NCBI RefSeq assembly: GCF_003627075.1
Contig: NZ_CP032630.1
Span: 1,736,001 to 1,800,000, forward strand
Direction: 5' to 3'
DNA length: 64,000 bases
Source: Protaetiibacter intestinalis
GTDB taxonomy: Bacteria > Actinomycetota > Actinomycetes > Actinomycetales > Microbacteriaceae
The notes under the pieces are model-generated. The model did no database searches. It was not told where the DNA came from and worked only from the letters and a program-made list of their open reading frames with translations. Both the position numbers and the translations under genes were made by a program. Below are positions 35,458 through 59,957 of this stretch, piece by piece; within the stretch, counting starts at the first letter, position 1, and every line of letters begins with the position of its first letter.

Positions 35458-36591
35458 TCAGGCGAGGGCGGCGTAGAGGGCGGCGGCGTAGGCGTTCGAG
35501 CGCTCCGAGCCGATGATGCCCTCCGACATCCGGTTCATGACGTAGCTGAAGGTGACACCGCGCTCCACGTCGTTCAGGATGAGCGAGCCGCCCCATCCGC
35601 CCCAGAACGCGACGCGCGAGCCGCCCGGCAGGTACGGGGTGACGGCGGGATGCGGCAGCGCGTAGCCGATGCCGAAACGCAGCGGCTGGAACAGCACGAG
35701 GTCGATGCCGTCGGACTGCTGCTCGAAGACCCGCTCGATGGTCGCGGGGGAGAGGTAGCGGCGGCCGTCCTGCTCGCCGCCGTGGGTGAGCAGCGACTGG
35801 ATGCGGCCGAGCGAGCGGGCGTTGCCGTGGCCGTTCGCACCGCCGAGCTCGGCGGTGCGCCAGGCGTCGGTCCAGGTGACGGTGGCGTCGAGGTACGGGT
35901 TGCCGAGGGTGCGCAGGGCGGGGGCGTCGGGCGGCAGCTGCGAGAAGTCGAGCTGGGTGGGCGGCGGTGGGACCACGTTCGCGATGCGGGCGAAGTCGGC
36001 GGGGTCGAGGCCGATCGCGTAGTCGGCGCCGAGCGGCTCCGCGAGCTCCTCGCGCACGAAGGTGCCGAGAGTGCGGCCGTCGATGCGGCGCACGAGCTCG
36101 CCGAGCAGGTGCCCGTAATCGAGCAGGTGGTAGCCGGATGCGGTGCCGGCCGGCCACCAGGGGGCCTGGGCGGCGAGGGCGGCGGCGGCCCCCTCGGTGT
36201 CGTAGAGGAACTCGGCGGTCACCGGGTCGGCCCAGCCGGGCACGCCGGAGGTGTGCGAGAGCAGGTGCTTCACGAGCACACCCTCCTTGCTGGCGGCCGC
36301 GAACTCGGGCCAGTAGCGGGCGACCGGTGCGTCGAGGTCAATGTCGCCGCGGTCGACGAGCAGCAGCACGGCGAGGGCGGTGACGGTCTTGGTGCACGAC
36401 CAGGTGTTGGTGATGGTGTCGCGCTCCCAGGGGCGGGTGCGAGCCTCGTCGGCCCAGCCTCCCCAGAGGTCGACCACGAGCTCGCCGTGCTCGTAGACGG
36501 CGAGTGAGGCGCCGAGCTCCTCGTGCTCGAGCCGGCGGGCGAACTCCTCGCGGAGGCCGGTGTAGCGGTCGGCGGCGGTGCCTTCGAGCAT
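35458..36591 (-). CDS. Serine hydrolase, class C beta-lactamase/esterase fold
   Basis: This 377-residue protein of the beta-lactamase-like family (EstB-type carboxylesterases) has the catalytic Ser65-x-x-Lys68 (SCTK) and Tyr159 (DYGH). There is no signal peptide, so it acts in the cytoplasm, likely on an ester or lactone rather than as a beta-lactamase. The ATG at 36591 has a GAAGGAGA Shine-Dalgarno. A promoter on the minus strand (TTGACA 36653-36648, TATGCT 36628-36623) contains one copy of the TetR operator. The enzyme is therefore predicted to belong to the same regulon as the divergent SDR-TetR operon. Confidence 0.88.
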   Translation of the reverse strand: MLEGTAADRYTGLREEFARRLEHEELGASLAVYEHGELVVDLWGGWADEARTRPWERDTITNTWSCTKTVTALAVLLLVDRGDIDLDAPVARYWPEFAAASKEGVLVKHLLSHTSGVPGWADPVTAEFLYDTEGAAAALAAQAPWWPAGTASGYHLLDYGHLLGELVRRIDGRTLGTFVREELAEPLGADYAIGLDPADFARIANVVPPPPTQLDFSQLPPDAPALRTLGNPYLDATVTWTDAWRTAELGGANGHGNARSLGRIQSLLTHGGEQDGRRYLSPATIERVFEQQSDGIDLVLFQPLRFGIGYALPHPAVTPYLPGGSRVAFWGGWGGSLILNDVERGVTFSYVMNRMSEGIIGSERSNAYAAALYAALA

Positions 36592-36627
36592 GGGAGCGTC
36601 TCCTTCGACGTCGGGTGGACGCAGCAT

Positions 36628-36641
36628 ACCGCGTGGTCGGT
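36628..36641. promoter_or_regulatory. TetR operator site 1 (serine hydrolase promoter)
   Basis: ACCGCGTGGTCGGT lies between the -35 (TTGACA) and -10 (TATGCT) of the minus-strand serine hydrolase promoter. It shares CATACCGnnnRGTCGGT with three other sites in the window. Binding here would block polymerase. Confidence 0.75.
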
Positions 36642-36684
36642 TTTGGCTGTCAAGAGTTGCATCCCGCCCGCTGATGGGTAACAT

Positions 36685-36698
36685 ACCGAGCAGTCGGT
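36685..36698. promoter_or_regulatory. TetR operator site 2 (SDR-TetR operon promoter)
   Basis: ACCGAGCAGTCGGT starts directly after a -10 box TAACAT (36679-36684), whose -35 is TTGCAT (36657-36662, 16 nt spacing). This is the most symmetrical copy (ACCGA-N4-TCGGT). It lies upstream of the operon that includes the tetR gene, so it would give autorepression. Confidence 0.75.
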
Positions 36699-36734
36699 TT
36701 TGTGGCCGACGGCGACGGAGCCCCGGGAGGACGC

Positions 36735-37499
36735 ATGCGACGGTTCGACGGCGAGCTCGCCCTCATCACCGCGGCGAGCCGCGGCATCGGCTACGCCATC
36801 GCCGAACGCCTCGTCGCCGAAGGGGCCCGCGTCGTCATCACCGCGCGGCACGAGGAGCCGCTCCGCGAGTCGGCCGAACGCCTCGGCGACGACGCCCACT
36901 GGGTGGCCGGCCGCGCCGACGACCCCGAACACCGCGCCGCCGTGTACGCCCGCATCCGCGAACTCGGCGGCCTCGACCTGCTCGTCAACAACGTCGGCAT
37001 CAACCCCGTCTACGGTCCCGCCCTCGACATCGACGCCACAGCCGCCCGCAAGATCCTCGACGTCAACGTCATCGGCGCGCTCGAATGGACCCGCGACGCC
37101 GTCGCCGCGGGGCTGCGCGAACGCCGTGGTGCGATCGTCAACATCGCCTCCATCGCCGGCATCGGCACGAGCCCCGGCATCGCCTTCTACGGCATCTCCA
37201 AGGCGGCGCTCATCTCGCTCACCACCCAGCTCGCCTACGAACTGGCCCCCGACATCCGCGTCAACGCCGTCGCGCCCTCGATCGTCAAGACCGACTTCGC
37301 GAAGGCTCTCTACGACGGACGCGAGGCGGAGGTCGCCGCCCAGTTCCCGCTCGGCCGACTCGGCACCCCCGCCGAAGTCGCCGGACCCGTCGCCTTCCTG
37401 CTCTCCGACGACGCCGCCTGGATCACCGGCCGGACTATCGTGATCGACGGCGGGGGATCGCTCCGCCCGATCGGACAGTCGGCAGGAGCAACCCGATGA
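36735..37499 (+). CDS. Short-chain dehydrogenase/reductase
   Basis: This 254-residue NAD(P)-dependent oxidoreductase has cofactor motif TAASRGIGYAIAE, the NNVG motif, and catalytic Ser and Tyr-x-x-x-Lys in ASIAGIGTSPGIAFYGISK. Its substrate is unknown; the context suggests a hydroxyacyl-CoA or alcohol. An in-frame ATG at 36702 overlaps operator 2. The ATG at 36735 has GGGAGG 4 nt upstream and is preferred. The stop overlaps the tetR start (ATGA). Confidence 0.9.
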   Translation: MRRFDGELALITAASRGIGYAIAERLVAEGARVVITARHEEPLRESAERLGDDAHWVAGRADDPEHRAAVYARIRELGGLDLLVNNVGINPVYGPALDIDATAARKILDVNVIGALEWTRDAVAAGLRERRGAIVNIASIAGIGTSPGIAFYGISKAALISLTTQLAYELAPDIRVNAVAPSIVKTDFAKALYDGREAEVAAQFPLGRLGTPAEVAGPVAFLLSDDAAWITGRTIVIDGGGSLRPIGQSAGATR

Positions 37500-38074
37500 A
37501 GGACTTCAACGTGCGCGACCAGGTGGCCCGGGCCGCCGTGGAACTGTTCGCCGAGAAAGGCTACGCGAACACCTCCGTGCAGGAGGTCGTCGAACGCGCG
37601 GGCGTCACCAAGGGCGCCATGTACCACTACTACCGCTCCAAGGACGACCTTCTGTTCGGCATCTACGAGCGGATGCTGACCCTGCAGCGCGAACACCTCG
37701 ACGAGATCATCGCGCGGGGCCTGCCCACCGCCGAGACCCTGCGCGCGGCGTGCGTCGACGTCGTCGAGACCTCCATCGACGCACTGCCCGAAGGCACCGT
37801 GTTCTTCCGCTCCGTGCACATGCTCTCGCCCGAACGGCAGGCCGAGGTGACCCGCCGCCGCCGCGAGTACAACGACGCCTTCGCCGCGCTCGTGACCCGT
37901 GGGCAGGCCGACGGGCTCTACCGCGACGACATCCCGACGGCGCTGCTCGTCGCCAACTTCTTCTCCGACATCCACTACCTGTCCAACTGGTACAAGCCCA
38001 CCGGTGCCGAGACCAAGACGCAGGTGGCGGAGCAGATCACCGACCTCTTCCTGAAAGGCATACGAGCGACATGA
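37496..38074 (+). CDS. TetR family regulator of the catabolic island
   Basis: This 192-residue repressor has an N-terminal helix-turn-helix (TSVQEVVERAGVTKGAMYHYYRSKDDLL, about residues 25-55) and a TetR ligand-binding core. It lies inside an operon preceded by two copies of a shared operator; two more copies precede the LIV importer operon and the APH-ACAD-ligase operon. I infer that it represses all four transcripts and is released by a pathway intermediate, probably an acyl-CoA. Start and stop overlap its neighbours (ATGA), so it is tightly coupled. Confidence 0.85.
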   Translation: MKDFNVRDQVARAAVELFAEKGYANTSVQEVVERAGVTKGAMYHYYRSKDDLLFGIYERMLTLQREHLDEIIARGLPTAETLRAACVDVVETSIDALPEGTVFFRSVHMLSPERQAEVTRRRREYNDAFAALVTRGQADGLYRDDIPTALLVANFFSDIHYLSNWYKPTGAETKTQVAEQITDLFLKGIRAT

Positions 38075-39054
38075 CATCGAGGGCATGGCAGGCCACCGCA
38101 TACGGCGAGCCGGGGGAGGTGCTCGAGCTCGTCGAGCGGGAACTCCCGGAACCCGGACCCGGCGAGGTGCGCATCCGCACCACTGCCATCGCCCTCAACT
38201 TCCCCGATGTGCTGCTGTGCCGCGGGCAGTACCAGGTACGGCCCGAGCCGCCCTTCGTGCCCGGCGTCGAATGCTGTGGCGTCGTCACCGCCGTGGGTGC
38301 GGGGGTGGATGCCGTGGCCGTCGGCGACCGCGTCGTCGGCTCGCTCATCGGCGTGCTCGCCGAGGAGGCCGTGCTGCCCGCCGGCTCCGTGTTCCCCGCC
38401 CCGCCCGCGCTCACGGACGCCGAGGCCGCCGCGCTCACCGTCGGCTACCAGACGGCGTGGGTGGGCCTGAATCGACGTGCCGCCCTGCAGGCGGGCGAGA
38501 CCGTGCTCGTGACCGCAGCATCCGGGGGCGTCGGCTCGGCCGCCGTGCAGCTCGCCGCCGCCGCGGGCGCGCGGGTGATCGCGGTGGTCGGCTCGGCCGC
38601 GAAGGGCGAGCTCGCCCGACGTCTCGGGGCGGACGTCGTCATCGACCGCTCGAGCGACGACATCGTCGAGCGCGTCAAAGCCGAAACCGGCGGCCGCGGC
38701 GTCGAGGTGGTGTTCGACCCGGTCGGCGGCGACACCTACGCGGCCGCGCAGAAGGCGATCGCCTTCGAGGGGCGGCTGCTCGTCGTCGGCTTCGCCGGCG
38801 GCGACATCCAGCAGATCCCCGCCAACATCGTGCTCGTGAAGAACTTCAGCGTCGTCGGCGTGCACTGGGGGCTGTACATGAGCAAGAACCCCGCCGTCAC
38901 CCGCGAAGCGCACGCCGCGCTCACCGAGCTGGCGGCATCCGGGGTCGTGAGGCCGGAGGTGACCGAGGTGCCGTTCGCCGAGGTGCCCGAAGCGCTCGAC
39001 CGGCTCGCCGCGGGCGTCACCGTCGGCCGCCTCGTCGCGGTGGTCGAGCCGTGA
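38071..39054 (+). CDS. NADPH:quinone oxidoreductase family protein (MDR, zinc-free)
   Basis: This 327-residue medium-chain reductase has N-terminal residues PEPPFVPGVECCGVV and cofactor motif ASGGVGSAAVQLA. There are no structural or catalytic zinc ligands, which places it in the quinone oxidoreductase/enoyl reductase branch. In this operon it may reduce an enoyl-CoA or act as an accessory reductase. The ATG overlaps the tetR stop, and its stop overlaps the next SDR start (GTGA). Confidence 0.88.
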   Translation: MTSRAWQATAYGEPGEVLELVERELPEPGPGEVRIRTTAIALNFPDVLLCRGQYQVRPEPPFVPGVECCGVVTAVGAGVDAVAVGDRVVGSLIGVLAEEAVLPAGSVFPAPPALTDAEAAALTVGYQTAWVGLNRRAALQAGETVLVTAASGGVGSAAVQLAAAAGARVIAVVGSAAKGELARRLGADVVIDRSSDDIVERVKAETGGRGVEVVFDPVGGDTYAAAQKAIAFEGRLLVVGFAGGDIQQIPANIVLVKNFSVVGVHWGLYMSKNPAVTREAHAALTELAASGVVRPEVTEVPFAEVPEALDRLAAGVTVGRLVAVVEP

Positions 39055-39779
39055 GCGCGCTCCACGGCAAGGTCGCCCTCGTGACCGGCGCCGGCCGGGG
39101 CATCGGCGCCGCCATCGCCCGAGCCCTCGTGCGCGACGGCGCCGCCGTCGTGCTGAGCGACGTGCTCGACGCCGACGGCGAGGCGCTCGCCGCGGAGCTC
39201 GGACAGCACTTCCTGCACCTCGACGTCACCGACTCCGCCGCGTGGACGGCCGTCGTCGCCGACGTCGTCGAACGGCACGGGCGCCTCGACGTGCTCGTCA
39301 ACAACGCCGGCATCGCCACCACGGCATCCGTCGCCAAGCAGGAGCTCGAGGAGTGGAACCGGGTGCTCGAGGTGAACCTCACCGGCACTTTCCTCGGCAT
39401 CCAGGCGGCCGCCCGCGTCATGCGCCCGCGCGGCAGCGGCTCGATCGTGAACCTGTCGTCCGTCGACGGTCTGCGCGGCAACGCCGCCCTGCACGCCTAC
39501 ACGGCCAGCAAGTTCGGCGTCACGGGCATCACCAAGTCCACCGGCATCGAACTCGGGCGGCACGGCATCCGCGTCAACTCCGTGCACCCGGGGCTCATCG
39601 CCACCGAGATGACCTCGCACCTCGACCCCGAATCGTTCTCCATCCCGCTCGGGGTCGCGGGCAGCCCGGATGAGGTGGCGGAGCTCGTGGCGTTCCTCGC
39701 CTCCGACGCCTCCCGCTACTCGACGGCCTCCGAGTTCGTCGTCGACGGCGGCATCACGGCCTGCCTCCCGCACCGGTAG
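39051..39779 (+). CDS. Short-chain dehydrogenase/reductase (FabG/HSD-like)
   Basis: This 242-residue classical SDR has GAGRGIGAAIAR, NNAGIA, catalytic Ser (NLSSVDGL) and YTASK. A C-terminal DGGITACLPHR segment resembles 3-alpha(20-beta)-hydroxysteroid dehydrogenase and related enzymes. It ends the four-gene operon. Together with the first SDR it gives two candidate hydroxy-to-oxo steps. The specific substrate cannot be read from sequence. Confidence 0.88.
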   Translation: MSALHGKVALVTGAGRGIGAAIARALVRDGAAVVLSDVLDADGEALAAELGQHFLHLDVTDSAAWTAVVADVVERHGRLDVLVNNAGIATTASVAKQELEEWNRVLEVNLTGTFLGIQAAARVMRPRGSGSIVNLSSVDGLRGNAALHAYTASKFGVTGITKSTGIELGRHGIRVNSVHPGLIATEMTSHLDPESFSIPLGVAGSPDEVAELVAFLASDASRYSTASEFVVDGGITACLPHR

Positions 39780-39797
39780 GCGTCACCCCTTCCCGCT

Positions 39798-39863
39798 GGT
39801 TGAGGCCCCACTGGTCCACGCCTGCACGGGTTTGGATACGCCCGCTGCGCGGGCTGCTCAACC
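39798..39863. repeat. Degenerate Microbacteriaceae-type GGTTGAG repeat
   Basis: GGTTGAG (39798-39804) and CTCAACC (39857-39863) bracket a segment with TTTGGATACG and a GCCCGC-TGC-GCGGGC hairpin (39840-39854). From memory this resembles the dispersed element of Microbacteriaceae that reads GATACGCTCGC...CTCAACCAG. It lies between the SDR stop and the LIV promoter and could act as a terminator. Confidence 0.5.
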
Positions 39864-39877
39864 CGCGGCAGAAACAT

Positions 39878-39891
39878 ACCGCCCGGTCGGT
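39878..39891. promoter_or_regulatory. TetR operator site 3 (LIV importer promoter)
   Basis: ACCGCCCGGTCGGT, within CATACCGCCCGGTCGGTA, lies just upstream of a TACAGT -10 box (39900-39905), so it covers the -35 region. The first gene starts at 39944. It shares the motif with sites 1, 2 and 4, linking the importer to the TetR regulon. Confidence 0.75.
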
Positions 39892-39943
39892 AGGTCTGCT
39901 ACAGTGGCTCGAACGACGACCCGACGACACGATGGAGTGAGCG

Positions 39944-40750
39944 ATGTCCGTCGCCGATTCCGGCATACCCGCACCCGCGGCGCGACTCTCGGTGCGTGAG
40001 GTGACGGCCCGCTTCGGGGGCCTGACCGCGCTCGACCGGGTCGGCTTCGAGGTGCACCCCGGCGAGATCGTGGGACTCATCGGCCCCAACGGCGCAGGCA
40101 AGACCACGGTGTTCAACATCATCTGCGGGCTCTCGCGCGCCAAGTCCGGCACCGTGCTCGTCGACGGGCAGCCGCGTCCGCGCGCGCACCGGCTCGCCGC
40201 CGCGGGTGTCGCCCGCACCTTCCAGGGGCTGGCGCTCTTCCCCGGCCTCACGGTGCGGCAGAACGTCATGGCGGGGCTCTCGGAGCGTGCCCCCGGCATC
40301 CTCGGCGGCCTCGTCGGGCTGCCCGCCGGCCCCCGGCACCTCGTCGAGGCGGCCGGCCTCGCGCAGCAGGCGCTCGACGGGCTCGGCATCGGCGACACCG
40401 CCGAACGCCACCCCGACGATCTGCCCTACCCGATCCAGAAGCGGGTCGCGCTCGCCCGCGCCCTCGTCGCCCGCCCGCGCCTGCTGCTGCTGGACGAGCC
40501 CGCGGGCGGCCTCGGCGAAGACGAGATCACCGAGCTCGGCGAGCTCATCCGCGACGTGGTCGACGAGAACCCCGAGACCGCGGTGCTGTTCGTCGAGCAC
40601 CACGTCGACCTCGTGATGGCGGTCTCCGACCGCATCGTCGTGCTGGATGCGGGCCGCGTCATCGCGGAGGGCACGCCCGACGAGATCCGGGTGGATCCGG
40701 CCGTCGCCGAGGCCTACCTCGGCCACGACGTCGAGGAGGTGGCGCGATGA
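39944..40750 (+). CDS. LIV-type ABC importer ATPase (LivG-like)
   Basis: This 268-residue ATPase of the hydrophobic amino acid transport (HAAT) class has Walker A GPNGAGKTT, a LivG-style long insert after GVARTFQGLALFPGLT, a degenerate signature region (PYPIQKRVALARAL) and Walker B RLLLLDEPAGGL. LIV-type importers also carry aromatic and short-chain acids, amides and urea, so the substrate need not be an amino acid. It heads a five-gene operon with operator 3. The stop overlaps the next start. Confidence 0.92.
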   Translation: MSVADSGIPAPAARLSVREVTARFGGLTALDRVGFEVHPGEIVGLIGPNGAGKTTVFNIICGLSRAKSGTVLVDGQPRPRAHRLAAAGVARTFQGLALFPGLTVRQNVMAGLSERAPGILGGLVGLPAGPRHLVEAAGLAQQALDGLGIGDTAERHPDDLPYPIQKRVALARALVARPRLLLLDEPAGGLGEDEITELGELIRDVVDENPETAVLFVEHHVDLVMAVSDRIVVLDAGRVIAEGTPDEIRVDPAVAEAYLGHDVEEVAR

Positions 40751-41481
40751 GCGCCCCCACCGCCGTGCGCACCGCGCTCGCCCTCGACGGCGTCGTCGCC
40801 GGCTACGGCCAGGACCCGGCCCTGCACGGTGTCGACCTCGTCGTGCCGGAAGGGGCCATCGTCGCCGTCGTCGGCGCGAACGGCGCCGGCAAGTCGACCC
40901 TGCTGCGCACCATCTCGGGGCTGCTGCCGACGAGCGCGGGCGACATCCGCCAGGACGGTCTCTCGCTCGCGGGCGTGCCCGTCGAAGAGCGCATCCGCCG
41001 GGGCATCGTGCACGTGCCGGAGCGCCGCCAGGTGATCCCCGAGCTCACCGTGGAGGAGAACCTGCGCCTCGGCGCGCTGTGGCGGCGCGACCCCGCCGAA
41101 CGCGCGGCTGACACCGCCGAGGTGTACGAGTTCTTCCCCGCGCTCGCCGAACGCCGCCACCGCGCGGGCTCGACGCTCTCGGGCGGTGAACGGCAGATGC
41201 TCGCCATCGGCCGGGCGTTCATGGCGCACCCGAAAGTGATGCTGCTCGACGAGCCCTCGCTCGGCCTCGCGCCGAAGGTGGTCGCCGACATCATGTCGAT
41301 GCTCGCCTGGCTGCGCGCCGAGTTCTCGATCACCGTGCTGCTCGTCGAGCAGAACGTGCGCACCGCCCTCTCCATCGCCGACACCGGCGTCGTGCTGAAC
41401 CTCGGCCGCGTCGTCGCCACCCGCCCGGCAGCCGAGCTCGAAGCCGACGAGCAGCTGCGCCACCTCTACCTGGGGTTCTGA
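40747..41481 (+). CDS. LIV-type ABC importer ATPase (LivF-like)
   Basis: This 244-residue ATPase has Walker A GANGAGKST, signature TLSGGERQMLAIGRA and Walker B VMLLDEPSLGL, with the LivF-type VPERRQVIPELTVEENL segment. It forms the nucleotide-binding pair with the preceding protein. Its ATG overlaps the previous stop (ATGA), and the permease starts directly after its stop. Confidence 0.92.
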   Translation: MSAPTAVRTALALDGVVAGYGQDPALHGVDLVVPEGAIVAVVGANGAGKSTLLRTISGLLPTSAGDIRQDGLSLAGVPVEERIRRGIVHVPERRQVIPELTVEENLRLGALWRRDPAERAADTAEVYEFFPALAERRHRAGSTLSGGERQMLAIGRAFMAHPKVMLLDEPSLGLAPKVVADIMSMLAWLRAEFSITVLLVEQNVRTALSIADTGVVLNLGRVVATRPAAELEADEQLRHLYLGF

Positions 41482-42360
41482 ATGTCGACCATCCTGCTGC
41501 TCCTCGGCGCCGGCCTCGCCCGCGGTGCGGTCTTCGCGCTCTTCGCCCTCGCCCTCGTGCTCATCTGGCGGGCCACCCGCATCGCCAACTTCGCCCAGGG
41601 TGCCATGGCGGTCGCCTCCGCCTACCTCGCCTATCTCGTGCTCGTCGGCACGGGCTCGTTCCTGCTGGCGATCGTCACGGTGCTCGTCGCGGGCGCCGCG
41701 ATCGGTTTCGGGATGGAGCGGGGCCTCATGCGCTTCGTGCCGAGCCGCTCGCCGCTCAACTCGATCATCGTCGCGATCGGCGCCGTCATGGTGCTCACCG
41801 GCCTGCTCGGCATCCTGTTCGGTGCCGACTACAAGCCGATCGCGGTGCCGTTCAGCCGTGAGCCGCTCGAGTTCGGCGGCGTCGCGGTCGTCTCGCCGTA
41901 CACGTTGTTCGTGTTCGTCGTCGTGGCGGTCGTGGTGGCGGGCATCGCGGTGCTGTTCACCCGCACCTCGCTCGGACTCGCGATGCGCGCCTCCGCCTTC
42001 GACGACGAGGTCGCCCGGCTCAACGGGGTGCGGGTGTCGCGGATGCGCACGATCGGCTGGATGCTGTCGAGCGCGGTCGGCGGCCTCGCGGTGCTGCTCG
42101 CGGTGCCCACCGAGCTGGGGCTCGGGCCGCATTCGGGCGACCTGCTGTTCGTCAACGCGTTCACGGTCGCGATCATCGGCGGCCTCGACTCACCCGTCGG
42201 CGCCGTCGTCGCCGGTCTGCTGACCGGCGTGCTGCTCACCGTGGTGACCACGCTGTGGGGTGCCACGGTCGGTCCGATCGCGATCCTCATCCTGCTGGTC
42301 GTCGTGCTGCTCGTGCGACCGCAGGGCATCTTCTCGCTCCGGAAGGCCCGACTCGCATGA
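41482..42360 (+). CDS. LIV-type ABC importer permease (LivH-like)
   Basis: This 292-residue inner-membrane permease has about eight hydrophobic helices and the family segment RATRIANFAQGAMAV near the N-terminus. The EAA-like region is SPVGAVVAGLLTG. It begins at the base after the LivF-like stop and overlaps the LivM-like start by 4 nt. Confidence 0.9.
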   Translation: MSTILLLLGAGLARGAVFALFALALVLIWRATRIANFAQGAMAVASAYLAYLVLVGTGSFLLAIVTVLVAGAAIGFGMERGLMRFVPSRSPLNSIIVAIGAVMVLTGLLGILFGADYKPIAVPFSREPLEFGGVAVVSPYTLFVFVVVAVVVAGIAVLFTRTSLGLAMRASAFDDEVARLNGVRVSRMRTIGWMLSSAVGGLAVLLAVPTELGLGPHSGDLLFVNAFTVAIIGGLDSPVGAVVAGLLTGVLLTVVTTLWGATVGPIAILILLVVVLLVRPQGIFSLRKARLA

Positions 42361-43496
42361 CCCGCACCCAGGCCACCGATACGCCCGCGCCCGACGCGAT
42401 CCGCCCCCGCCACGCGAAGCGCCGGCACTGGCTGCTCGTGCCCGCCGGCTGGTCGCCCCTGCAGCGCTGGGGCGCGACCGTCATCATCCTCGTGCTGGCA
42501 CTCGCGGGCACCTTCCTGCTCGACCCGTATCGCAACTATCTGCTCGCCCTCGCGACCGCCTACGTGTGCGGTACCGCGGGGCTCTCGCTGCTCGTCGGGC
42601 GCACCGGGCAGCTGTCGCTCGGGCACGCCGCGTTCATGGCGGCGGGGGCGTACGCGTTCGCCTTCACCTCGAACGCACTCGCGGACGCGGAGGCGCCGAG
42701 CCTCGCCCACCTGCTGCTGCCGTTCCTCGTCGCGGTCGTCGCCTCGAGCCTGCTCGGGCTCGTCGTCGGCATCGCGGGCGCCCGCCTGCACGGCCCCTAC
42801 CTGGCGGGGCTCACGCTCGCACTCGTCGTAGCCCTGTCGTCGATCACCGCCACCTTCTCGGGCCTGTTCGGCGGGGATGCCGGCTTCTACGTCTCGGTCG
42901 AGCGGCGACCCGAGTGGCTCGCCTCGATCATCGCCCAGGAGCAGTGGCAGGCCTGGGTGGGGCTTGTCGTGGCCGCGATCGTGCTCGGCGCCCTCTCGCA
43001 GCTCGTGCGCAGCCCCGCCGCCCTCCGCATGCAGGCGGTGCGCGACGACGAGCCCGCCGCCCGGCTCTCGGGCATCGACCCCGTCACGACGCGCGTCGGC
43101 ATGTTCGGCATCAGCGCCGCCGCCGCGGGCCTCGGCGGCGGCGTGCTCGCCTACGTCACCCAGGCGGTCTCGCCGGGTGCCTACGGGCTCACCCTCTCGC
43201 TCTTCCTCCTCGTCGCGGTCGTGATCGGCGGCGTCGGCACCCTCGCCGGCGCGGTCTGGGGGGCGGTCGTCATCGTGCTCGTCCCTGAACTCACCTCCGC
43301 CCTGACGGAGGCGCTCCCGCTCCCCGCCGAGCTGTCGCAACGGCTCGACGGGAACCTGGCGATCGTGGTGTTCGGCGTGATCCTCGTCGTCGTCATGCTC
43401 GCCGCCCCCCGGGGCATCCACGGCGCCGTCGCAGGCCTTGTCAGCCGCCTGCGCCGGCATCGGGGGCGCCCCGGCGCACCAACCCCCACCACCTGA
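42357..43496 (+). CDS. LIV-type ABC importer permease (LivM-like)
   Basis: This 379-residue permease has about ten helices and the family segment GRTGQLSLGHAAFMAAGAYAF. An N-terminal cytoplasmic stretch of about 40 residues precedes the first helix. The ATG overlaps the LivH-like stop (ATGA). The binding-protein gene follows after 19 nt. Confidence 0.9.
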   Translation: MTRTQATDTPAPDAIRPRHAKRRHWLLVPAGWSPLQRWGATVIILVLALAGTFLLDPYRNYLLALATAYVCGTAGLSLLVGRTGQLSLGHAAFMAAGAYAFAFTSNALADAEAPSLAHLLLPFLVAVVASSLLGLVVGIAGARLHGPYLAGLTLALVVALSSITATFSGLFGGDAGFYVSVERRPEWLASIIAQEQWQAWVGLVVAAIVLGALSQLVRSPAALRMQAVRDDEPAARLSGIDPVTTRVGMFGISAAAAGLGGGVLAYVTQAVSPGAYGLTLSLFLLVAVVIGGVGTLAGAVWGAVVIVLVPELTSALTEALPLPAELSQRLDGNLAIVVFGVILVVVMLAAPRGIHGAVAGLVSRLRRHRGRPGAPTPTT

Positions 43497-43515
43497 AATC
43501 ACGAAAGGAACCACG

Positions 43516-44790
43516 ATGACGCAACCGCACGCACGTGCGACGACGGTGTCCGCGATCGCGCTTGCAGTAGCAGGCGCGCTGGTGCTGTCATCCTGCAGCA
43601 CGCCCGGCTCGGAGGCGCAGCCGGGTCTCACCGACGACTCGGTGAAGGTCGGCACCCACCAGCCGCTGACCGGCCCGGCCGCCGCATCCTATGCGCCGAT
43701 CTCGGCGGCCACCGCAGCCTACTTCGACTACGTGAACGCGAACGGCGGCATCAACGGCCGCACGATCGAGTACATCGTCAAGGACGACGGCTACAACCCG
43801 GCCACCACCCAGACGGTGGTGCGCGAGCTCGTGCTCGAGGACGAGGTGTTCGCGATCCTGGGCGGCCTCGGCACCCCCACACACAGCTCGGTGCTCGACT
43901 TCCTGAACGAGAACGAGGTGCCCGACCTGTTCGTCTCGTCCGGCTCGGCCGCCTGGAACCAGGTCGAGAAGTACCCCTTCACCTTCGGCTTCCAGACCGA
44001 CTACGTGACCGAGGGCATGGTGCTCGGCCAGTACATCTCGGAGGAGTTCGCCGACGAGAAGGTGTGTCTCTTCGGCCAGGACGACGAGTTCGGCACGGAT
44101 GTGCGGGCCGGCCTCGAGCTGATCCTCGGTGCCGACGGACTCGCCGAGGTGCAGAGCTATTCGGTGTCGAACCAGGACGTGGCGGCGCAGATCGTGGCGT
44201 TGCAGTCGGCCGGCTGCGAGGTCAACGTGCTCGCCACGATCACCGGTTTCACGGCGCTCGCGATCGGCACGGCCGCCCAGCTGAAGTACTTCCCGCAGTG
44301 GGTATCGTCGTCGTCTGGCGCCGACTACGGTCCGCTCGCCGGCTACCTCGGCGACGCCGCCCCGCTGCTGCTCGAGGGCTTCATCTCGGACAACTACCTT
44401 CCGTCGGCGACCGAGTCGGAGAACAACTGGATCGAGCTGTTCCGCGAGGTCAACGACGAGTACAACGACGGTGCCGAGTTCACCGGCTCGGTCGTCTACG
44501 GCATGGCGATGGGCTACCTGTTCGCGGAGGCGCTGCTGCACGCCGGCAAGCACCCGACGCGCGAGGGCCTCGTCTCGGCGGTGCAGTCGGGTGACCTGAA
44601 GGGCTCCGGCCTCGTGCCGCTCGCCTTCGGCGTCGACAACCACTCGGGCTACGTCGGTGCGGGCATCACGGTCGTGCATGACGGCATCCAGGGTGCGATC
44701 GAGGGCAAGCGCTGGGTGCGCGAGGGCGACACGGTGGTCCCGTGGGACAACCCGCCGGTCGAGCTCCTCTCCGGCGGCATCCCCAGCTGA
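43516..44790 (+). CDS. LIV-type ABC importer substrate-binding lipoprotein
   Basis: This 424-residue extracellular binding protein has a signal peptide with lipobox LSSC (Cys27) and a type I periplasmic-binding fold (VGTHQPLTGPAAASYAPI, NANGGINGRTIEYIVKDD). It belongs to the branched-chain/aromatic acid binding group and would define import specificity; the ligand is unknown. AAAGGA (43504-43509) precedes the ATG. A strong terminator follows, so the operon ends here. Confidence 0.92.
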   Translation: MTQPHARATTVSAIALAVAGALVLSSCSTPGSEAQPGLTDDSVKVGTHQPLTGPAAASYAPISAATAAYFDYVNANGGINGRTIEYIVKDDGYNPATTQTVVRELVLEDEVFAILGGLGTPTHSSVLDFLNENEVPDLFVSSGSAAWNQVEKYPFTFGFQTDYVTEGMVLGQYISEEFADEKVCLFGQDDEFGTDVRAGLELILGADGLAEVQSYSVSNQDVAAQIVALQSAGCEVNVLATITGFTALAIGTAAQLKYFPQWVSSSSGADYGPLAGYLGDAAPLLLEGFISDNYLPSATESENNWIELFREVNDEYNDGAEFTGSVVYGMAMGYLFAEALLHAGKHPTREGLVSAVQSGDLKGSGLVPLAFGVDNHSGYVGAGITVVHDGIQGAIEGKRWVREGDTVVPWDNPPVELLSGGIPS

Positions 44791-44802
44791 TCCCGCACAC
44801 GA

Positions 44803-44833
44803 AGGGCCCCGGATGCACTGCATCCGGGGCCCT
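44803..44833 (+). terminator. Terminator of the LIV operon
   Basis: A perfect 12 bp GC-rich stem (44803-44814 with 44822-44833, loop GCACTGC) is followed by CTTCG. It begins 12 nt past the operon stop codon. Confidence 0.8.
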
Positions 44834-44837
44834 CTTC

Positions 44838-44873
44838 GCGCCACCACCGGTGCGGATGTGGCGGTGGTGGCGC
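44838..44873. terminator. Second hairpin between convergent genes
   Basis: A perfect 12 bp stem GCGCCACCACCG/CGGTGGTGGCGC (44838-44849 with 44862-44873) lies between the LIV operon and the end of the acyl-CoA ligase gene. It probably serves the convergent ligase transcript or backs up the first hairpin. Confidence 0.6.
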
Positions 44874-44912
44874 GACGGGTCGAAGGAGGGCGGGGTTGGA
44901 GGAGGTGGAGGA

Positions 44913-46499
44913 TTACGCGGTCGGCGCCGGCTGGAACCGCACCACGAGCTCGCGCTTGAGCACCTTGCCGGAGGCGCCCACCGGCAGCTCGGTCACGAGG
45001 TGCACGACGCGCGGGAACTTGTAGGCGGCGATGCGGTCGCGCACGAAGGCGATGAGCTCCTCGGCGTCGACGGCGTCGTCGTGCGGGATGACGGCCGCGT
45101 GGATCTCCTGGCCGTGGGTGTCGTGGGCGACGCCGAAGACGGCGGCGTTGACGACGCCCGGATGGCGCAGCAGCACCTGCTCGACCTCGTTCGGGTACAC
45201 GTTGTAGCCGTTGCGCACGATCATGTCCTTCTTGCGGTCGACGATGGTGATGTAGTCGTCGTCGTCCTTGATGCCGAGGTCGCCGGTGCGGAACCAGCCG
45301 TCGGTGAAGGTGGCCTCGGTGGCGTCGGGGCGGCCGAGGTAGCCGGCGAACAGGTTGTAGCCGCGCACCACGATCTCGCCGAGTTCGCCGTGCGGCAGCA
45401 GCACGATGGCGTCCTCGTTCTCGGGGTCGGCGATCTCGACGTCGACGCCCCAGTTGGGCTGCCCGACGGTGCCGGGGCGCGGGGTGCGGCCGACGTAGTT
45501 GAAGCTCACCGTCGGCGAGGTCTCGGTGAGTCCGTAGCCTTCGTGTATGGGCGCGCCGAACACCTCCTGGAAGCGTTCGAGCACCGCCACGGGTAGGGCC
45601 GCGCCGCCCGACACGGCGAAGTTGAGCGGCGGCCGCGCATCCGTCTGCTCGGCGGCCTGCAGCATCCCGATGTACATGGTGGGCACGGCGGTGAACACGG
45701 TGGCGCCGTATGCCGCCATGAGCTCGATCGCCTCGACGGCGTCGAACTTGGGCAGCAGGATGATGGAGCCGCCGCGCCGGAAGGTCACGTTGAGCACCGC
45801 CATCTGCCCGAAGATGTGGAACAGCGGCAGTCCGCCGAAGACGACCTCGTCACATGTCATCGGGAAGGTGTCGATGAGGGCGACGTTGACCTGCTCGATC
45901 ATGTTCAGGTGCGTGCCGATGGCGCCCTTGGGGGCGCCCGTGGTGCCGCTCGTGTAGAGCACGGTGGCGGCGTCGAGGGGCGAGGTTGAGGCGTAGCGCT
46001 CGATCGGGGTGGCCGCGGCGGCTTCGGCCTCCAGCCGCAGGATGCCCTTCTCGGCGGCGATCGCCTCGGGCAGCAGCACGGTCGTGAGCGGCACCTGCGC
46101 GCGGGCGCACGCGACGGCGGCCTCCTCGAGCACGGGGGCGGCGACGACGGCGAGCTTCGCGCCGGAGTCGCGCAGCACGTACTCGATCTCGTCTGCCTTG
46201 AACAGCAGGTGCACGGGCACGACGACCGCGCCGAGCGAGAGCACCGCGTAGTACACCCGCACGAAGTCGGGCACGTTGGGGATGACGATCGCCACCCGGT
46301 CACCGGGGCCGATGCCGCGCTCGCGCAACGCGCCCGCGTAGGCGCGGGTCTGGTCCCACAGGGCGCCGTAGGGGATGGTGTGCCCCATGAAGTGCAGCGC
46401 GGGGCGCTCGGGCTGGCGGTGGGCGGTCTCGGCGAGGATCGCGGCGATCGACATCGTCGCGTAGCCGGGCCCGTCGTAGAGCTTCGAGGTGGCGGTCAT
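44913..46499 (-). CDS. Acyl-CoA ligase (AMP-forming, class I adenylate-forming)
   Basis: This 528-residue enzyme activates a carboxylic acid to its CoA ester with ATP. Motifs are YTSGTTGAPKGA, the acid-pocket region HIFGQMAVLN, EGYGLTETSP, GWFRTGDLG and the C-terminal DRKKDMIVRNGYNVYP and ASGKVLKREL, whose lysine is catalytic. It resembles FadD-type long/medium-chain ligases, but the acid is not determined. The ATG at 46499 has GAGAGG upstream. It is the last gene of the APH-ACAD-ligase operon, which starts behind operator 4. Confidence 0.9.
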   Translation of the reverse strand: MTATSKLYDGPGYATMSIAAILAETAHRQPERPALHFMGHTIPYGALWDQTRAYAGALRERGIGPGDRVAIVIPNVPDFVRVYYAVLSLGAVVVPVHLLFKADEIEYVLRDSGAKLAVVAAPVLEEAAVACARAQVPLTTVLLPEAIAAEKGILRLEAEAAAATPIERYASTSPLDAATVLYTSGTTGAPKGAIGTHLNMIEQVNVALIDTFPMTCDEVVFGGLPLFHIFGQMAVLNVTFRRGGSIILLPKFDAVEAIELMAAYGATVFTAVPTMYIGMLQAAEQTDARPPLNFAVSGGAALPVAVLERFQEVFGAPIHEGYGLTETSPTVSFNYVGRTPRPGTVGQPNWGVDVEIADPENEDAIVLLPHGELGEIVVRGYNLFAGYLGRPDATEATFTDGWFRTGDLGIKDDDDYITIVDRKKDMIVRNGYNVYPNEVEQVLLRHPGVVNAAVFGVAHDTHGQEIHAAVIPHDDAVDAEELIAFVRDRIAAYKFPRVVHLVTELPVGASGKVLKRELVVRFQPAPTA

Positions 46500-46509
46500 G
46501 GCGTGCCTC

Positions 46510-47757
46510 TCAGGGTCGGGCCGTCTCCGTCGACGGCGCGGTTCGGGGTGCGGTGGCGGGGGTGCGGAGCAGGGCCCGGCCGAGGGACTCGAGGTGCACC
46601 TCGTCGGGCCCGTCGGCGATCCGCAGGGTGCGGATGCCGGCGGCGAACTCGGCGAGCGGGGTGTCGGCGGAGACGCCGGCCGCGCCGAAGAGCTGGATGA
46701 CGTCGTCGACGATGCGCCCGACGGCGGCGGGCACGGCGATCTTGATGGCCTGGATCTCGGTGCGGGCGGCCTTGTTGCCGACGGTGTCCATGAGCCAGGC
46801 GGTCTTGAGCACGAGCAGCCGCAGCGCCTCGAGCTCGGTGCGCGCGGCGGCGATGCGCTGCCGGATGACGCCGTGCTCGGCGAGCGGCCGCCCGAAGGCG
46901 ACGCGCGCGTGGGCGCGTTCGTGGGCGAGGTGCAGGGCGCGCTCGGCCTGCCCGAGGGCGCGCATGCAGTGGTGGATGCGGCCGGGGCCGAGGCGCGCCT
47001 GGGCGATCGCGAAGCCGTCGCCCGCCCCGCCGAGCAGGTTCCCGATGGGCACCCGCACCCCTTCGAAGGCGATCTCGGCGTGCCCGCCGTGGTCCCGGTC
47101 GTCGTAGCCGAACACGGTGAGCGGGCGGATGATGCGCACGCCGGGGGTGTCGCGCGGCACGAGCACCATCGACTGGCGGCGGTGAGGTTCGGCATCCGGG
47201 TCGGTGACGCCCATCACGATGAGCAGCCGGGCGTCCGGGTTCATGGCGCCCGTCGACCACCACTTGCGCCCGGTGGTGACGAGCTCGTCGCCGTCCTGCT
47301 CGATGCGGGTGGCGATGTTGGTGGCGTCGGAGGAGGCCACCTCCGGCTCGGTCATGCAGAACGCCGAGCGGATGCGGGCCTCGAGCAGCGGTTCGAGCCA
47401 CGCCTGCCGCTGCTCGGGGGTGCCGAAGCCGTGCAGCAGCTCCATGTTGCCGGTGTCGGGTGCGTTGCAGTTCATGGCGGCGGGGGCGAGCCGCGGGCTC
47501 CAGCCGGAGAGCTCGGCGACGGGCGCGTATTCGAGGTTGCTGAGGCCCGCCTCGTGACCGGGCAGGAAGAGGTTCCAGAGGCCTCGGCGCCGCGCCTCGA
47601 CCTGCAGCTCCCGCACGATCGGGCGGGTGCCCCACTCGTCGGGGGTGGCGGCGAGCTGCTCCTCGAAGGCGGTTTCGGCAGGCAGCACCGCCTCGTCGAG
47701 GAAGGACCGCATCCGCTCGGTGTACTCGGCGGCTCGTGCGGAGGGGGCGAAGTCCAT
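46510..47757 (-). CDS. Acyl-CoA dehydrogenase (ACAD10/11-like partner of an APH kinase)
   Basis: This 415-residue FAD enzyme has the ACAD motifs AFCMTEPEVASSD and KWWSTGAMNPDARL, the C-terminal flavin segment QLFGAAGVS, and the RHWSDE-like end (IRTLRIADGPDEVH). The N-terminal segment (LWNLFLPGHEAGLSNLEYAPVAE) resembles the ACAD domain of the eukaryotic ACAD10/ACAD11 proteins, which are fused to an APH kinase domain. Here the kinase is the adjacent gene, overlapping by ATGA. It lies between the kinase and the acyl-CoA ligase, and likely acts on a phosphorylated 4-hydroxyacyl-CoA or on an alpha,beta-saturated acyl-CoA. Confidence 0.88.
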   Translation of the reverse strand: MDFAPSARAAEYTERMRSFLDEAVLPAETAFEEQLAATPDEWGTRPIVRELQVEARRRGLWNLFLPGHEAGLSNLEYAPVAELSGWSPRLAPAAMNCNAPDTGNMELLHGFGTPEQRQAWLEPLLEARIRSAFCMTEPEVASSDATNIATRIEQDGDELVTTGRKWWSTGAMNPDARLLIVMGVTDPDAEPHRRQSMVLVPRDTPGVRIIRPLTVFGYDDRDHGGHAEIAFEGVRVPIGNLLGGAGDGFAIAQARLGPGRIHHCMRALGQAERALHLAHERAHARVAFGRPLAEHGVIRQRIAAARTELEALRLLVLKTAWLMDTVGNKAARTEIQAIKIAVPAAVGRIVDDVIQLFGAAGVSADTPLAEFAAGIRTLRIADGPDEVHLESLGRALLRTPATAPRTAPSTETARP

Positions 47758-48818
47758 CAGGCTCGCACCCCCTCGAGTCGGCGCAGTCCCGCGGCGGCGA
47801 GCAGGGGCACGAGTTCGCCGACGTGGTCGAATCCGGCGCCGAGGGTCTCGCCCTGGTCGTGACGCAGCTGGATGCCCTCCAGGATGATGGCGAGCTTGGC
47901 GGCGGCGAAGCCCGTGTACCAGCCGAGTTGCGGCACCTCGATGCCGCGCGCCTCGGCGTAGGCGTCGAGCAGCTCGTCGAAGCCGGGGTAGCCGGCGGCC
48001 GGATCGACGGAGGTGCGGCTGACGGGGGAGTCGCCGGTCACCTCGGCGATGTCCCAATAGAGGCCGAGGAGGCCGAGGTCGGTGAGCGAGTCGCCGAGGG
48101 TCGCCATCTCCCAGTCGAGCACGGCGGCGATCCGCGGGCCGTCGGCGCTGCGCTGCACGATGACGTTGTCGAGCCGGTAGTCGCCGTGCACGAGCGAGCT
48201 GTGCAGGGTCGCGGGGACGCCGGCGCCGAGCCGCTTGAGCAGACGGTCGAGCTCGGGCAGCTCGCGGAACCTGTTGCCCTGGTACTGGGTCGCCCAGCGG
48301 CGGAGATTCCTCTCGAGGAATCCGTCGGGGCGGCCGAAGTCGGCGAGTCCGACTGCGGCGGGTTCGATGCTGTGCAGCTCGGCGAGGGTGCGGATGAGCG
48401 CGAAGCTCACGCCGCGCAGCTCTTCGGACGTCCAGCCGGTGTTGTCGGCGAGGTCGTCGAGGATCTCGCCCTCGACGTACTCCATGAGGGTGAACTCGGT
48501 GCCGACGCCGGCGCTGCCGTCGGCGTCGGCATCCCACAGGTACTGCTTCGGCACGGGCACCGCGGTGCCGTTCAGCGCGCTCTGCACCCGGTGCTCGCGC
48601 GCCATGTCGTGCGCGGTCGAGAGCACGTGCCCGAGTGGGGGGCGGCGCAGCACGAGCGGATCCGCGGCACCGCGGATGCGGTAGGTGAGGTTGCTGAGGC
48701 CGCCGGTGAGCAGCCGGGCGCTGAGCGGGCCGTCGCCGCGCAGTTCGGGGGCGCGGGCGCCGAGCCACGCCTCGAAGGCGCGGATGTCGAGACCCGTGGG
48801 GGAGACGCCGTCGTCCAT
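47757..48818 (-). CDS. Phosphotransferase (APH-like) kinase
   Basis: This 353-residue protein kinase-like fold of the APH/choline kinase superfamily has an N-terminal GGLSNLTYRI nucleotide-binding strand, catalytic LVHGDYRLDNVIV and the metal-binding DWEMATLGD. It is very close in type to the kinase domain of ACAD10/11 and to LvaA-like kinases that phosphorylate 4-hydroxyacyl-CoA. It is not expected to be an aminoglycoside resistance enzyme, since it is cotranscribed with an ACAD and a CoA ligase. Operator 4 lies 18 nt upstream of the ATG. The stop overlaps the ACAD start. Confidence 0.88.
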   Translation of the reverse strand: MDDGVSPTGLDIRAFEAWLGARAPELRGDGPLSARLLTGGLSNLTYRIRGAADPLVLRRPPLGHVLSTAHDMAREHRVQSALNGTAVPVPKQYLWDADADGSAGVGTEFTLMEYVEGEILDDLADNTGWTSEELRGVSFALIRTLAELHSIEPAAVGLADFGRPDGFLERNLRRWATQYQGNRFRELPELDRLLKRLGAGVPATLHSSLVHGDYRLDNVIVQRSADGPRIAAVLDWEMATLGDSLTDLGLLGLYWDIAEVTGDSPVSRTSVDPAAGYPGFDELLDAYAEARGIEVPQLGWYTGFAAAKLAIILEGIQLRHDQGETLGAGFDHVGELVPLLAAAGLRRLEGVRA

Positions 48819-48835
48819 GCCGGCAACCGTAGCAT

Positions 48836-48849
48836 ACCGGCTGGTCGGT
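48836..48849. promoter_or_regulatory. TetR operator site 4 (APH-ACAD-ligase promoter)
   Basis: ACCGGCTGGTCGGT, within GCATACCGGCTGGTCGGTTTT, overlaps a minus-strand TATGCT -10 (48836-48831) for the kinase operon. It fits in the 32 bp between the thioesterase stop and the kinase start. It matches sites 1-3. Confidence 0.75.
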
Positions 48850-48850
48850 T

Positions 48851-49279
48851 TTAAGCCGGATCGATCATGAGTTCGCCCTCGATCGCCGCGCGCAGCGCAT
48901 CCGGGATCGGCGTCGGGCGGCGATGCTCGCGATCGACGAACACGTGCACGAAGGTGCCGGTGGCGAGCAGCTCGTCGTCCGAGTCGCGGAAGATGCCCGT
49001 CTCCCAGGTGACGCTCGTCGTGCCGACACGCCCCGCGCGCACCCCCACCCGGAGCGTCTCGGGGAAGCTGCCGGAGGCGCGGTACTCGCACGACGACGCG
49101 ACGATCACCCCGATCACCTCGCCGCGCTCCGGGTCGAGCGCGCCGGTGCCGATCATCCAGGTGTTGACCGCCGTGTCCATCGCCGCGTAGTACACGACGT
49201 TGTTGACATGGCCGTAGACGTCGTTGTCGTTCCAGCGGGTGGGGAAGGGGTGGTGCCAGCCGTAGCCGCTCATGCTCAT
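48851..49279 (-). CDS. Acyl-CoA thioesterase (4HBT hot-dog fold)
   Basis: This 142-residue hot-dog enzyme has the 4HBT-type active-site loop RWNDNDVYGHVNNVVYYAAMD, with the likely catalytic Asp in NDxDVYGHVNN. It hydrolyses acyl-CoA thioesters and probably recycles CoA or removes dead-end acyl-CoAs of the pathway. It follows the QsdR-like tetR gene by 18 nt, so the two are cotranscribed. The kinase operon begins beyond its stop. Confidence 0.9.
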   Translation of the reverse strand: MSMSGYGWHHPFPTRWNDNDVYGHVNNVVYYAAMDTAVNTWMIGTGALDPERGEVIGVIVASSCEYRASGSFPETLRVGVRAGRVGTTSVTWETGIFRDSDDELLATGTFVHVFVDREHRRPTPIPDALRAAIEGELMIDPA

Positions 49280-49297: not shown

Positions 49298-49942
49298 TCA
49301 GGCGCCGAGCACGAGGGCGAACGCCGCCCGCGCCCGCTCGGCGCTCGGCTCCTCGCCGGCGATGAGGTCGGCGTAGGAGAAGGTCTCGGAGATGCGCACG
49401 ATGAGGTACGCGAGGTCGTGGCGGGGCAGCGCCGGGCGCCCCGCCTCGGGGGCGTGGGTGGCGAGCAGCTCCTCGACGGCGGCGACGTAGCGACGCTGGA
49501 TCTCGGACTCGCCCGTGGTCATGAGCCGCAGAGCGCGCTGCGGCTCCCGCGCGAGGAAGTCGCGGAAGTACGGCGCCGTCACGAGCCCGTCGGCGAAGCG
49601 GCCGAGGACGTCGACGACGCGCTCCGCGCCCTCGCCCGTCGCCTGCTCCTCGGCGTGGTCGAGGCTCGCCTGGGCGAGCGACCACAGCACCTCGGCGAGC
49701 AGCGCGTCCCGGTTGCCGACCCAGCGGAACAGCGAGGTGCGGTCGACGCCGAGCTCGGCCGCGAGCGGGCCCATCTCGATGCGCTCGCCCGCGAGGAAGG
49801 CGCGCCGGGCGAGCTGGAAGGCCCGGGCCGCGTCGCGGTGCGGCACCTCGCCGTGCAGCCGCGCCGAGAGGGCGCTCGGCACGAGCCTCGTGGCGCGCGA
49901 TCCGACGCCGGGTTCGGCGGGCGTCATGGGCGCGTCGGGCAT
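49298..49942 (-). CDS. QsdR-like TetR family regulator
   Basis: This 214-residue regulator has a helix-turn-helix with LAAELGVDRTSLFRWVGNRDALLAEVLWSL, the wording typical of QsdR-type TetR proteins, which control gamma-lactone/quorum-signal degradation in Rhodococcus. An in-frame ATG lies upstream at 49969. The ATG at 49942 follows a TACCAT box (49955-49950) by 7 nt, so a leaderless start there is preferred. A perfect palindrome (49973-49996) lies between it and the divergent acyl-CoA dehydrogenase, and is its likely operator. Confidence 0.82.
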   Translation of the reverse strand: MPDAPMTPAEPGVGSRATRLVPSALSARLHGEVPHRDAARAFQLARRAFLAGERIEMGPLAAELGVDRTSLFRWVGNRDALLAEVLWSLAQASLDHAEEQATGEGAERVVDVLGRFADGLVTAPYFRDFLAREPQRALRLMTTGESEIQRRYVAAVEELLATHAPEAGRPALPRHDLAYLIVRISETFSYADLIAGEEPSAERARAAFALVLGA

Positions 49943-49972
49943 GTCCCGAATGGTAGCCCGAATACGCACGCT

Positions 49973-49996
49973 TGCAACATCCGCAAAAATGTTGCA
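49973..49996. promoter_or_regulatory. Operator of the QsdR-like TetR and promoter of the beta-oxidation operon
   Basis: TGCAACAT (49973-49980) and ATGTTGCA (49989-49996) form a perfect inverted repeat with an 8 nt A-rich centre. It overlaps a plus-strand promoter, TTGCAA (49972-49977) and CATAGT (49995-50000) with 17 nt spacing, for the downstream acyl-CoA dehydrogenase operon. The sequence differs from operators 1-4, so a different regulator is implied. Confidence 0.72.
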
Positions 49997-50063
49997 TAGT
50001 CATCCCGCCACCGCTCGACGACCCCGGGCGGGCCGGAATCAGACGACCGCGACGGAGCGAGAC

Positions 50064-59749: not shown

Positions 59750-59834
59750 GGCATCCCTTCCGGTTCCGGTCCGGGGATGCGCGACGCGAGGCGACGCCCG
59801 CCGACGGATGCCGAAACCGGCCGCCGCCGACGCG

Positions 59835-59957
59835 TGCTTCCTCTCATCCGGACTTTGACCGTCGGTCCCGGAATTCCACCGGATCGGCCCCATTCCTTGC
59901 GGAACGGGGTTCGCGGACTATCACCGCCGGTGCGGATTTCCACCGCCCCCGGAGCAC
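59835..59957 (-). promoter_or_regulatory. FMN riboswitch (RFN element)
   Basis: On the minus strand the conserved RFN pieces appear in order: a GGGGGCGGTGGAAATCC opening, ACCGGCGGTGATAGTCCGCG, a variable stem, GGTGGAATTCCGGGACCGACGGT and AAAGTCCGGATGAGAGGAAG. The closing P1 strands are GCTCC/GGAAGC-like. It controls ribD-ribE-ribBA-ribH, probably by hiding the ribD ribosome site when FMN is bound. The 65 nt below the element contain the expression platform. Confidence 0.96.

Follow-up and report, generated by a model that had tools for sequence, protein, structure and literature searches.

Which genes answer to a TetR repressor whose operon lies between an esterase gene and an importer operon, and on what substrate do they act? 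We asked this of a 64,000-nucleotide stretch of Protaetiibacter intestinalis (contig NZ_CP032630.1, positions 1,736,001 to 1,800,000; the whole stretch is called the window, and coordinates count from its first letter), in which tetR occupies 37496–38074. A preliminary description, drawn from the letters of the window, had joined an esterase, an SDR-tetR operon, an importer and a kinase-dehydrogenase-ligase operon into one regulon through four copies of a motif. Our analysis favours, with a probability of about 0.82, a TetR that acts through these four sites to repress genes for taking up and catabolising 4-hydroxy acids or gamma-lactones. The direct basis of this reading is the sites, the gene order, co-occurrence across genomes, the protein family and a set of diagnostic residues.

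Four operator copies and the genes behind them

Genes were called with a simple caller of our own, which makes some starts in the relatives too long, and domains were taken from Pfam. The genes and sites of the proposed regulon are as follows.

35458–36591, minus strand: serine hydrolase (PF00144, Pfam), like the fenoxaprop-p-ethyl hydrolase 7y3z by structure-database match
36625–36641, plus strand: operator 1, CATACCGCGTGGTCGGT, exact match, precedes the serine hydrolase gene
36682–36698, plus strand: operator 2, CATACCGAGCAGTCGGT, exact match, precedes the SDR1-tetR operon; kept in genomes G006 and G007
36735–37499, plus strand: SDR1, short-chain dehydrogenase (SDR), with a homologue of at least 50% identity in 74 of 80 tetR loci
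37496–38074, plus strand: TetR repressor, TetR_N and TetR_C_24 (domain profiles), PfmR-like by model
38071–39054, plus strand: ADH, zinc-dehydrogenase/quinone-oxidoreductase type (domain matches)
39051–39779, plus strand: SDR2, best NCBIfam match ChcB1, under its cut-off
39875–39891, plus strand: operator 3, CATACCGCCCGGTCGGT, exact match, precedes livG
39944–40750, plus strand: LivG ATPase (Pfam)
40747–41481, plus strand: LivF ATPase (Pfam)
41482–42360, plus strand: LivH permease (Pfam)
42357–43496, plus strand: LivM permease (Pfam)
43582–44790, plus strand: LivK substrate-binding protein (Pfam), start codon uncertain
44913–46499, minus strand: acyl-CoA ligase (domain matches)
46510–47757, minus strand: ACAD11/LvaC-type acyl-CoA dehydrogenase (ACAD), phosphate-eliminating type by homology, motif RLGPGRIHHCMR
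47757–48818, minus strand: APH-fold kinase of LvaA/ACAD10-11 type (4-hydroxyacyl-CoA kinase by homology), motif HGDYRLDN
48833–48849, plus strand: operator 4, CATACCGGCTGGTCGGT, exact match, inside the 32 bp that separate APH from the 4HBT gene

The 17-bp pattern CATACCGNNNRGTCGGT matches the window exactly at these four operators, all on the plus strand. The preliminary description had located its copies by the inner 14-bp core, ACCGNNNRGTCGGT, and they lie exactly where it put them. Since the pattern was built from the window, the independent evidence comes from the rest of the genome and from relatives. In the whole genome, a single contig of 3,097,107 bp, the exact pattern occurred four times, at the window's own sites, and neither the opposite strand nor a reversed-pattern control gave a match. 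When the refined 18-mer ATACCGNCYRGTCGGTWT was searched genome-wide with up to three mismatches, the four sites scored 0–1 mismatch, and no other genomic sequence came closer than three mismatches, bar the same four sites read backwards. A loose scan of the window at three mismatches returned 25 matches against 11 expected; these are mostly noise, and the weight rests on the exact sites. A logo made from 146 intergenic palindromes near gene starts, picked for their ACCG-N6-CGGT core, with the orientation set by score, reads CATACCGnCYRGTCGGTwT.

All four sites are intergenic, with 14–52 bp between the end of the site and the start codon (14 bp for APH, 33 for the hydrolase, 36 for SDR1 and 52 for LivG). 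Promoter elements could be placed by eye: TTGACA-19-TATGCT flanks site 1, TTGCAT-16-TAACAT lies ahead of site 2, TACAGT follows site 3, and TATGCT overlaps the end of site 4. None of these promoters was listed by a sigma-70 consensus scan, so the exact -35/-10 placement is weaker than the rest of the evidence.

TetR scored 67.4 bits against TetR_N (cut-off 24) and, in its C-terminal part, 89.9 bits against TetR_C_24 (cut-off 26.4). The closest Foldseek match of its model (pLDDT 91.8) was PfmR (3vpr, TM 0.87), at about 27% identity, and KstR2, AibR with isovaleryl-CoA and FadR were also near. The protein is probably a PfmR-like regulator of the acyl-CoA-responsive type.

Operator sites and TetR orthologs across genomes

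We compared 60 genomes, that of P. intestinalis included, and defined a close TetR ortholog by at least 66% identity. The five genomes with such an ortholog (G000, G006, G007, G033 and G044) carried 4, 4, 3, 3 and 7 sites, respectively, and the other 55 carried none (48 genomes) or one (seven). An ACAD11-type gene was present in ten of the 60, and the five of these ten without a close TetR ortholog had 0, 0, 0, 0 and 1 sites; the sites thus follow TetR and not the enzyme. In G044 (Isoptericola halotolerans; loci L069, L070 and L071), four more sites lie outside the main cluster, one of them preceding a gene for a distant acyl-CoA ligase (33% identity); these may belong to a larger regulon or to a paralogous regulator.

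When named genomes were scanned with five TetR orthologs, the best 80 loci were kept, at 62–89% identity. They span about 20 genera, for example Microbacterium, Agromyces, Cellulomonas, Isoptericola, Glycomyces and Kineosporia, and 74 of the 80 contain a strict site. Frequent occurrence of the motif outside promoters, which the preliminary description had named as a point that would tell against it, was not seen: 120 of the 125 strict sites in these loci are intergenic, where the intergenic share of bases is 10% by our gene caller. Sixty-one of the 125 stand before LivG and 44 before SDR1, two being counted in both. Of the 80 loci, 45 were entered in whole-genome searches; these covered 43 TetR-bearing genomes (42 of them new, G098 being G044 repeated) and found sites in every one, 1–7 each, and a reversed-pattern control gave three matches in all 43 together.

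We also surveyed 246 genomes of the class, counting as TetR-positive the 43 with a match at E ≤ 1e-50. A site was present in 36 of these 43 and in 33 of the 203 others (Fisher p = 2.4e-17, a test that ignores relatedness); the reversed control gave 15 matches over the whole survey. In 24 of the 43 TetR-positive genomes a strict site lay within 10 kb of tetR, and in 37 an ACAD11-type gene lay within 15 kb of it.

Among 38 distant orthologs, at 44–50% identity, ten tetR loci were read, with a match taken as at least 15 of the 18 consensus positions, a threshold that returns just the four sites in the 64-kb window. All ten loci had such a match, and eight had an APH-ACAD pair bearing the HHCMR signature. 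None of the ten had a recognisable LIV importer, the ABC genes close to tetR in L197 and L199 being of FecCD type; the kinase-ACAD pair therefore appears to be the regulator's oldest constant partner. L193 (G328) and L202 (G304) have TetR and a nearby site-like sequence, with no APH-ACAD within the 20 kb read.

The site moves with the hydrolase gene. Fifteen near regions were read, and five (L065, L182, L183, L184 and G006) have a hydrolase homologue, which in the first four is divergent from ADH2 or SDR3-MaoC, genes listed below, and in G006 adjoins SDR1, as in the window, with site 1 present. In all five regions, at either cluster position, the hydrolase has a strict site no more than 180 bp upstream. 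G007 has neither a hydrolase beside SDR1 nor site 1, and keeps site 2. That a site should accompany the hydrolase gene is expected under selection for regulation. Overall, the comparison supports the proposal of one regulon under this TetR, with binding and repression predicted, and, to judge from the genomes searched, the regulator-operator pair is widespread in actinomycetes and not local.

Substrate, mechanism and competing readings

The ACAD scored 422 bits against mouse ACAD11 (8v3u). Its top four PDB matches were three ACAD11 chains and 4hr3, a putative ACAD (416 bits), and the fifth match, the first outside this set, fell to 143 bits. It has equivalents of R626, R631, H634, R637 and D753 of ACAD11, in RLGPGRIHHCMR and ADGPDEVH. 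According to PMC12440821, R626, H634 and R637 are required for activity and, in modelling, bind the 4-phosphate; R631 positions the substrate, and D753 acts as catalytic base. Over the 59 loci with an ACAD match, all five residues are present in 52; four are uncovered at the motif, one is uncovered at the Asp, and the two without them (L089 and L114) have other ACADs, at 29% identity. The APH kinase scored 151 bits against the kinase domain of ACAD11 (8v3v), and scored higher on 9o56 (173) and 3dxp (156), named aminoglycoside phosphotransferase and putative acyl-CoA dehydrogenase. Its HGDYRLDN motif, with the catalytic Asp and Asn, appears as such, or as HGDFRLDN, in 32 of the 36 loci with a match, the other four being partly uncovered. 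In PMC11342911, bacterial LvaA and LvaC homologues could stand in for the ACAD10 domains that convert 4-hydroxyhexanoyl-CoA. The ACAD11-type residues, the matching kinase and this swap result together suggest that the regulon most likely handles 4-hydroxyacyl-CoA, formed from 4-hydroxy acids, from gamma-lactones once opened or from 4-keto acids after reduction. The preliminary description had left the substrate blank; the assignment of the pair to the LvaA/LvaC (ACAD10/11) type, acting on 4-hydroxyacyl-CoA, replaces that blank with a prediction.

In the scheme that we propose, we infer binding, repression, ligand and substrate, together with the roles of SDR1, SDR2, ADH, the esterase, the importer and the beta-oxidation genes. 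TetR would bind the four copies of the logo sequence and repress its own SDR1-tetR-ADH-SDR2 operon, the esterase, the LIV-type importer and the APH-ACAD-ligase operon. The importer would take up the acid, the esterase would open lactones or esters, and the ligase would form the CoA ester. SDR1, SDR2 and ADH would convert 4-oxo forms to 4-hydroxy forms and back; the APH kinase would phosphorylate the 4-hydroxyl, and the ACAD11-type enzyme would eliminate the phosphate to give a 2-enoyl-CoA, to be degraded by MaoC, SDR3 and thiolase. A CoA ester of the pathway would release the repressor. It is possible, though we lean against it, that this TetR stands for an actinomycete-wide class for 4-hydroxyacyl-CoA catabolism, with 4-hydroxyacyl-CoA or the 4-phospho intermediate as its ligand; if true, the class would be a natural sensor of the phosphorylated acyl-CoA route.

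Several observations weigh against a 4-hydroxy-acid regulon under this TetR. The strict site is missing in six of the 80 best loci, and of the 43 TetR-positive genomes in the class survey, 19 lack the strict pattern within 10 kb of tetR and seven lack it anywhere. Two of these 19 were read: L194 has a one-mismatch site before APH, and L193 has only a weaker one near tetR. Thirty-three of the 203 genomes under the TetR threshold still carry a site. Six of them have at least three sites; G230, G250, G313 and G337 have a TetR match (E 1e-36 to 1e-50) that lies 32–102 bp from a site, and G307 and G319 are unexplained. In six TetR-positive genomes the ACAD11-type gene is unlinked, with tetR and ACAD far apart on one contig in G328 and G269 and on different contigs in G209, G220, G278 and G304. 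In L192 (G259) another TetR (TetR_C_31, 15104–15679) lies directly upstream of APH and adjoins the site, and control in that lineage may be shared between two TetRs. On the side of the substrate, structure and profile searches of the SDRs, ADH, LivK and the ligase, with the LivK, ligase and SDR1 structures included, gave matches that name no substrate. For the esterase, the closest match is a herbicide-ester hydrolase rather than a known lactonase; the enzyme fits lactone or ester opening without proving it.

Contrary to the preliminary description, the regulon is not self-contained, for the conserved cluster continues past operator 4.

48851–49279, minus strand: 4HBT thioesterase, conserved neighbour (Pfam, relatives)
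49298–49969, minus strand: TetR2 (TetR_C_36), a different regulator (Pfam, relatives)
49973–49996, no strand assigned: perfect palindrome TGCAACAT-8-ATGTTGCA, likely TetR2 operator, in the TetR2/ACAD2 divergent promoter
50052–51257, plus strand: ACAD2, ordinary acyl-CoA dehydrogenase (domain scan), start codon uncertain
51299–52522, plus strand: thiolase (domain scan)
52527–53660, plus strand: ADH2, zinc dehydrogenase (Pfam)
53657–54409, plus strand: SDR3 (domain scan)
54406–54864, plus strand: MaoC hydratase (domain scan)

In several relatives an additional site precedes ADH2 or SDR3-MaoC, and a site-bearing ADH-SDR-MaoC operon would thereby join the regulon. Elsewhere in the window, a flavin mononucleotide (FMN) riboswitch (Rfam, 92.6 bits) lies at 59832–59959 on the minus strand, upstream of riboflavin synthesis genes.

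TetR2 adjoins operator 4, and of the 12 near regions that extend over its position 11 contain it; it might thus be the protein that reads the four sites. However, its divergent promoter has the different palindrome listed above, with the same arms and spacing in L063 (G006) and L064 (G007); among five regions tested, the palindrome was changed in L183 and none was found in L182. Moreover, none of the ten distant tetR loci with a conserved site has TetR2, and neither does L190, where sites precede LivG, APH and ADH2. Its own palindrome and its absence from site-bearing distant loci led us to reject TetR2 as the reader, a role that we hold to be very improbable, and the palindrome at 49973–49996 probably forms a switch of its own for TetR2 within this cluster. 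A chance pattern or a dispersed repeat, in place of an operator, is more remote still. The genome does have a REP-like palindrome containing GACCGGTCGGTTT, with 26 matches at up to one mismatch, but the arm of this repeat differs from the operator consensus at three positions and belongs to palindromes some 65 bp long, and across about 20 genera the operators are found again in front of orthologous genes. Chance or repeat origin was rejected on the arm distance and the palindrome context. The REP-like palindrome itself (CGCTGACCGGTCGGTTTC ... GAAACCGACCGGTCAGCG) occurs genome-wide, with several arm matches as inverted pairs 47 bp apart, and the copy in the window, at 60021–60087, is degenerate.

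The same regulon might also serve ordinary degradation of branched-chain, aromatic or fatty acids, with the kinase-ACAD pair as an accessory. The presence of the LIV importer and of beta-oxidation genes would suit such a role, as would the phenylacetate or fatty-acid genes served by PfmR and PaaR, which have similar sites, and the nearest model to SDR2, a hydroxycyclohexanecarboxylate dehydrogenase (under its cut-off). Yet the common partner of TetR in distant lineages is the APH-ACAD11 pair, in eight of the ten loci read and in 37 of the 43 survey genomes, whereas those ten loci showed no importer recognisable as LIV, and no paa genes were found among the cluster genes scanned. We consider this role unlikely.

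Relation to known systems

The enzymes of the proposed regulon are of a known kind. The kinase-plus-ACAD route for 4-hydroxy acids was recently worked out in Pseudomonas and mammals. In the open-access literature searched, we found no report of a TetR for 4-hydroxy-acid catabolism, nor of this operator with the pathway, and the literature searched held no description of how the route is controlled in actinobacteria. The repressor-operator pair would supply predicted substrates for the importer and the esterase, and a candidate biosensor for 4-hydroxy acids and gamma-lactones. With the 17-bp site the regulon can be sought in other actinomycete genomes, and a regulon of unspecified substrate becomes a testable one.

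The operator resembles those of two other TetR regulators, PfmR and PaaR, in being of the ACCGACC-GGTCGGT type, as judged by consensus similarity alone. The published site of PfmR (TTHB023, Thermus thermophilus) is TACCGACCGNTNGGTN (PMC7022988); in the case of PaaR of Burkholderia cenocepacia, negative control of paaA requires the inverted repeat ACCGACCGGTCGGT, to which PaaR was hypothesised to bind. The targets of these regulators differ, being phenylacetate or fatty-acid genes, and PaaR was compared by site, not by protein sequence.

The qsd operon (QsdR-QsdA-QsdC) of Rhodococcus erythropolis likewise places gamma-lactone opening and CoA ligation under a TetR repressor in an actinobacterium, and is de-repressed by gamma-caprolactone. 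QsdA is a phosphotriesterase-like lactonase, whereas the cluster here has a PF00144 serine esterase and, among the genes scanned, no phosphotriesterase-like lactonase. The term acyl-CoA dehydrogenase does not occur in either of the two QsdR papers, nor does kinase in the one checked for it.

With the lva operon of Pseudomonas putida and with mammalian ACAD10 and ACAD11, the cluster shares an APH-fold kinase together with a RLGPGRIHHCMR-site ACAD, and with the lva locus also an acyl-CoA ligase and SDRs alongside. In the lva operon the regulator is LvaR, of the sigma-54 kind, and there is an additional protein, LvaB. In P. intestinalis, by contrast, the APH and ACAD genes abut with no gene between them, and the locus has a TetR operator, a LIV importer and an esterase.

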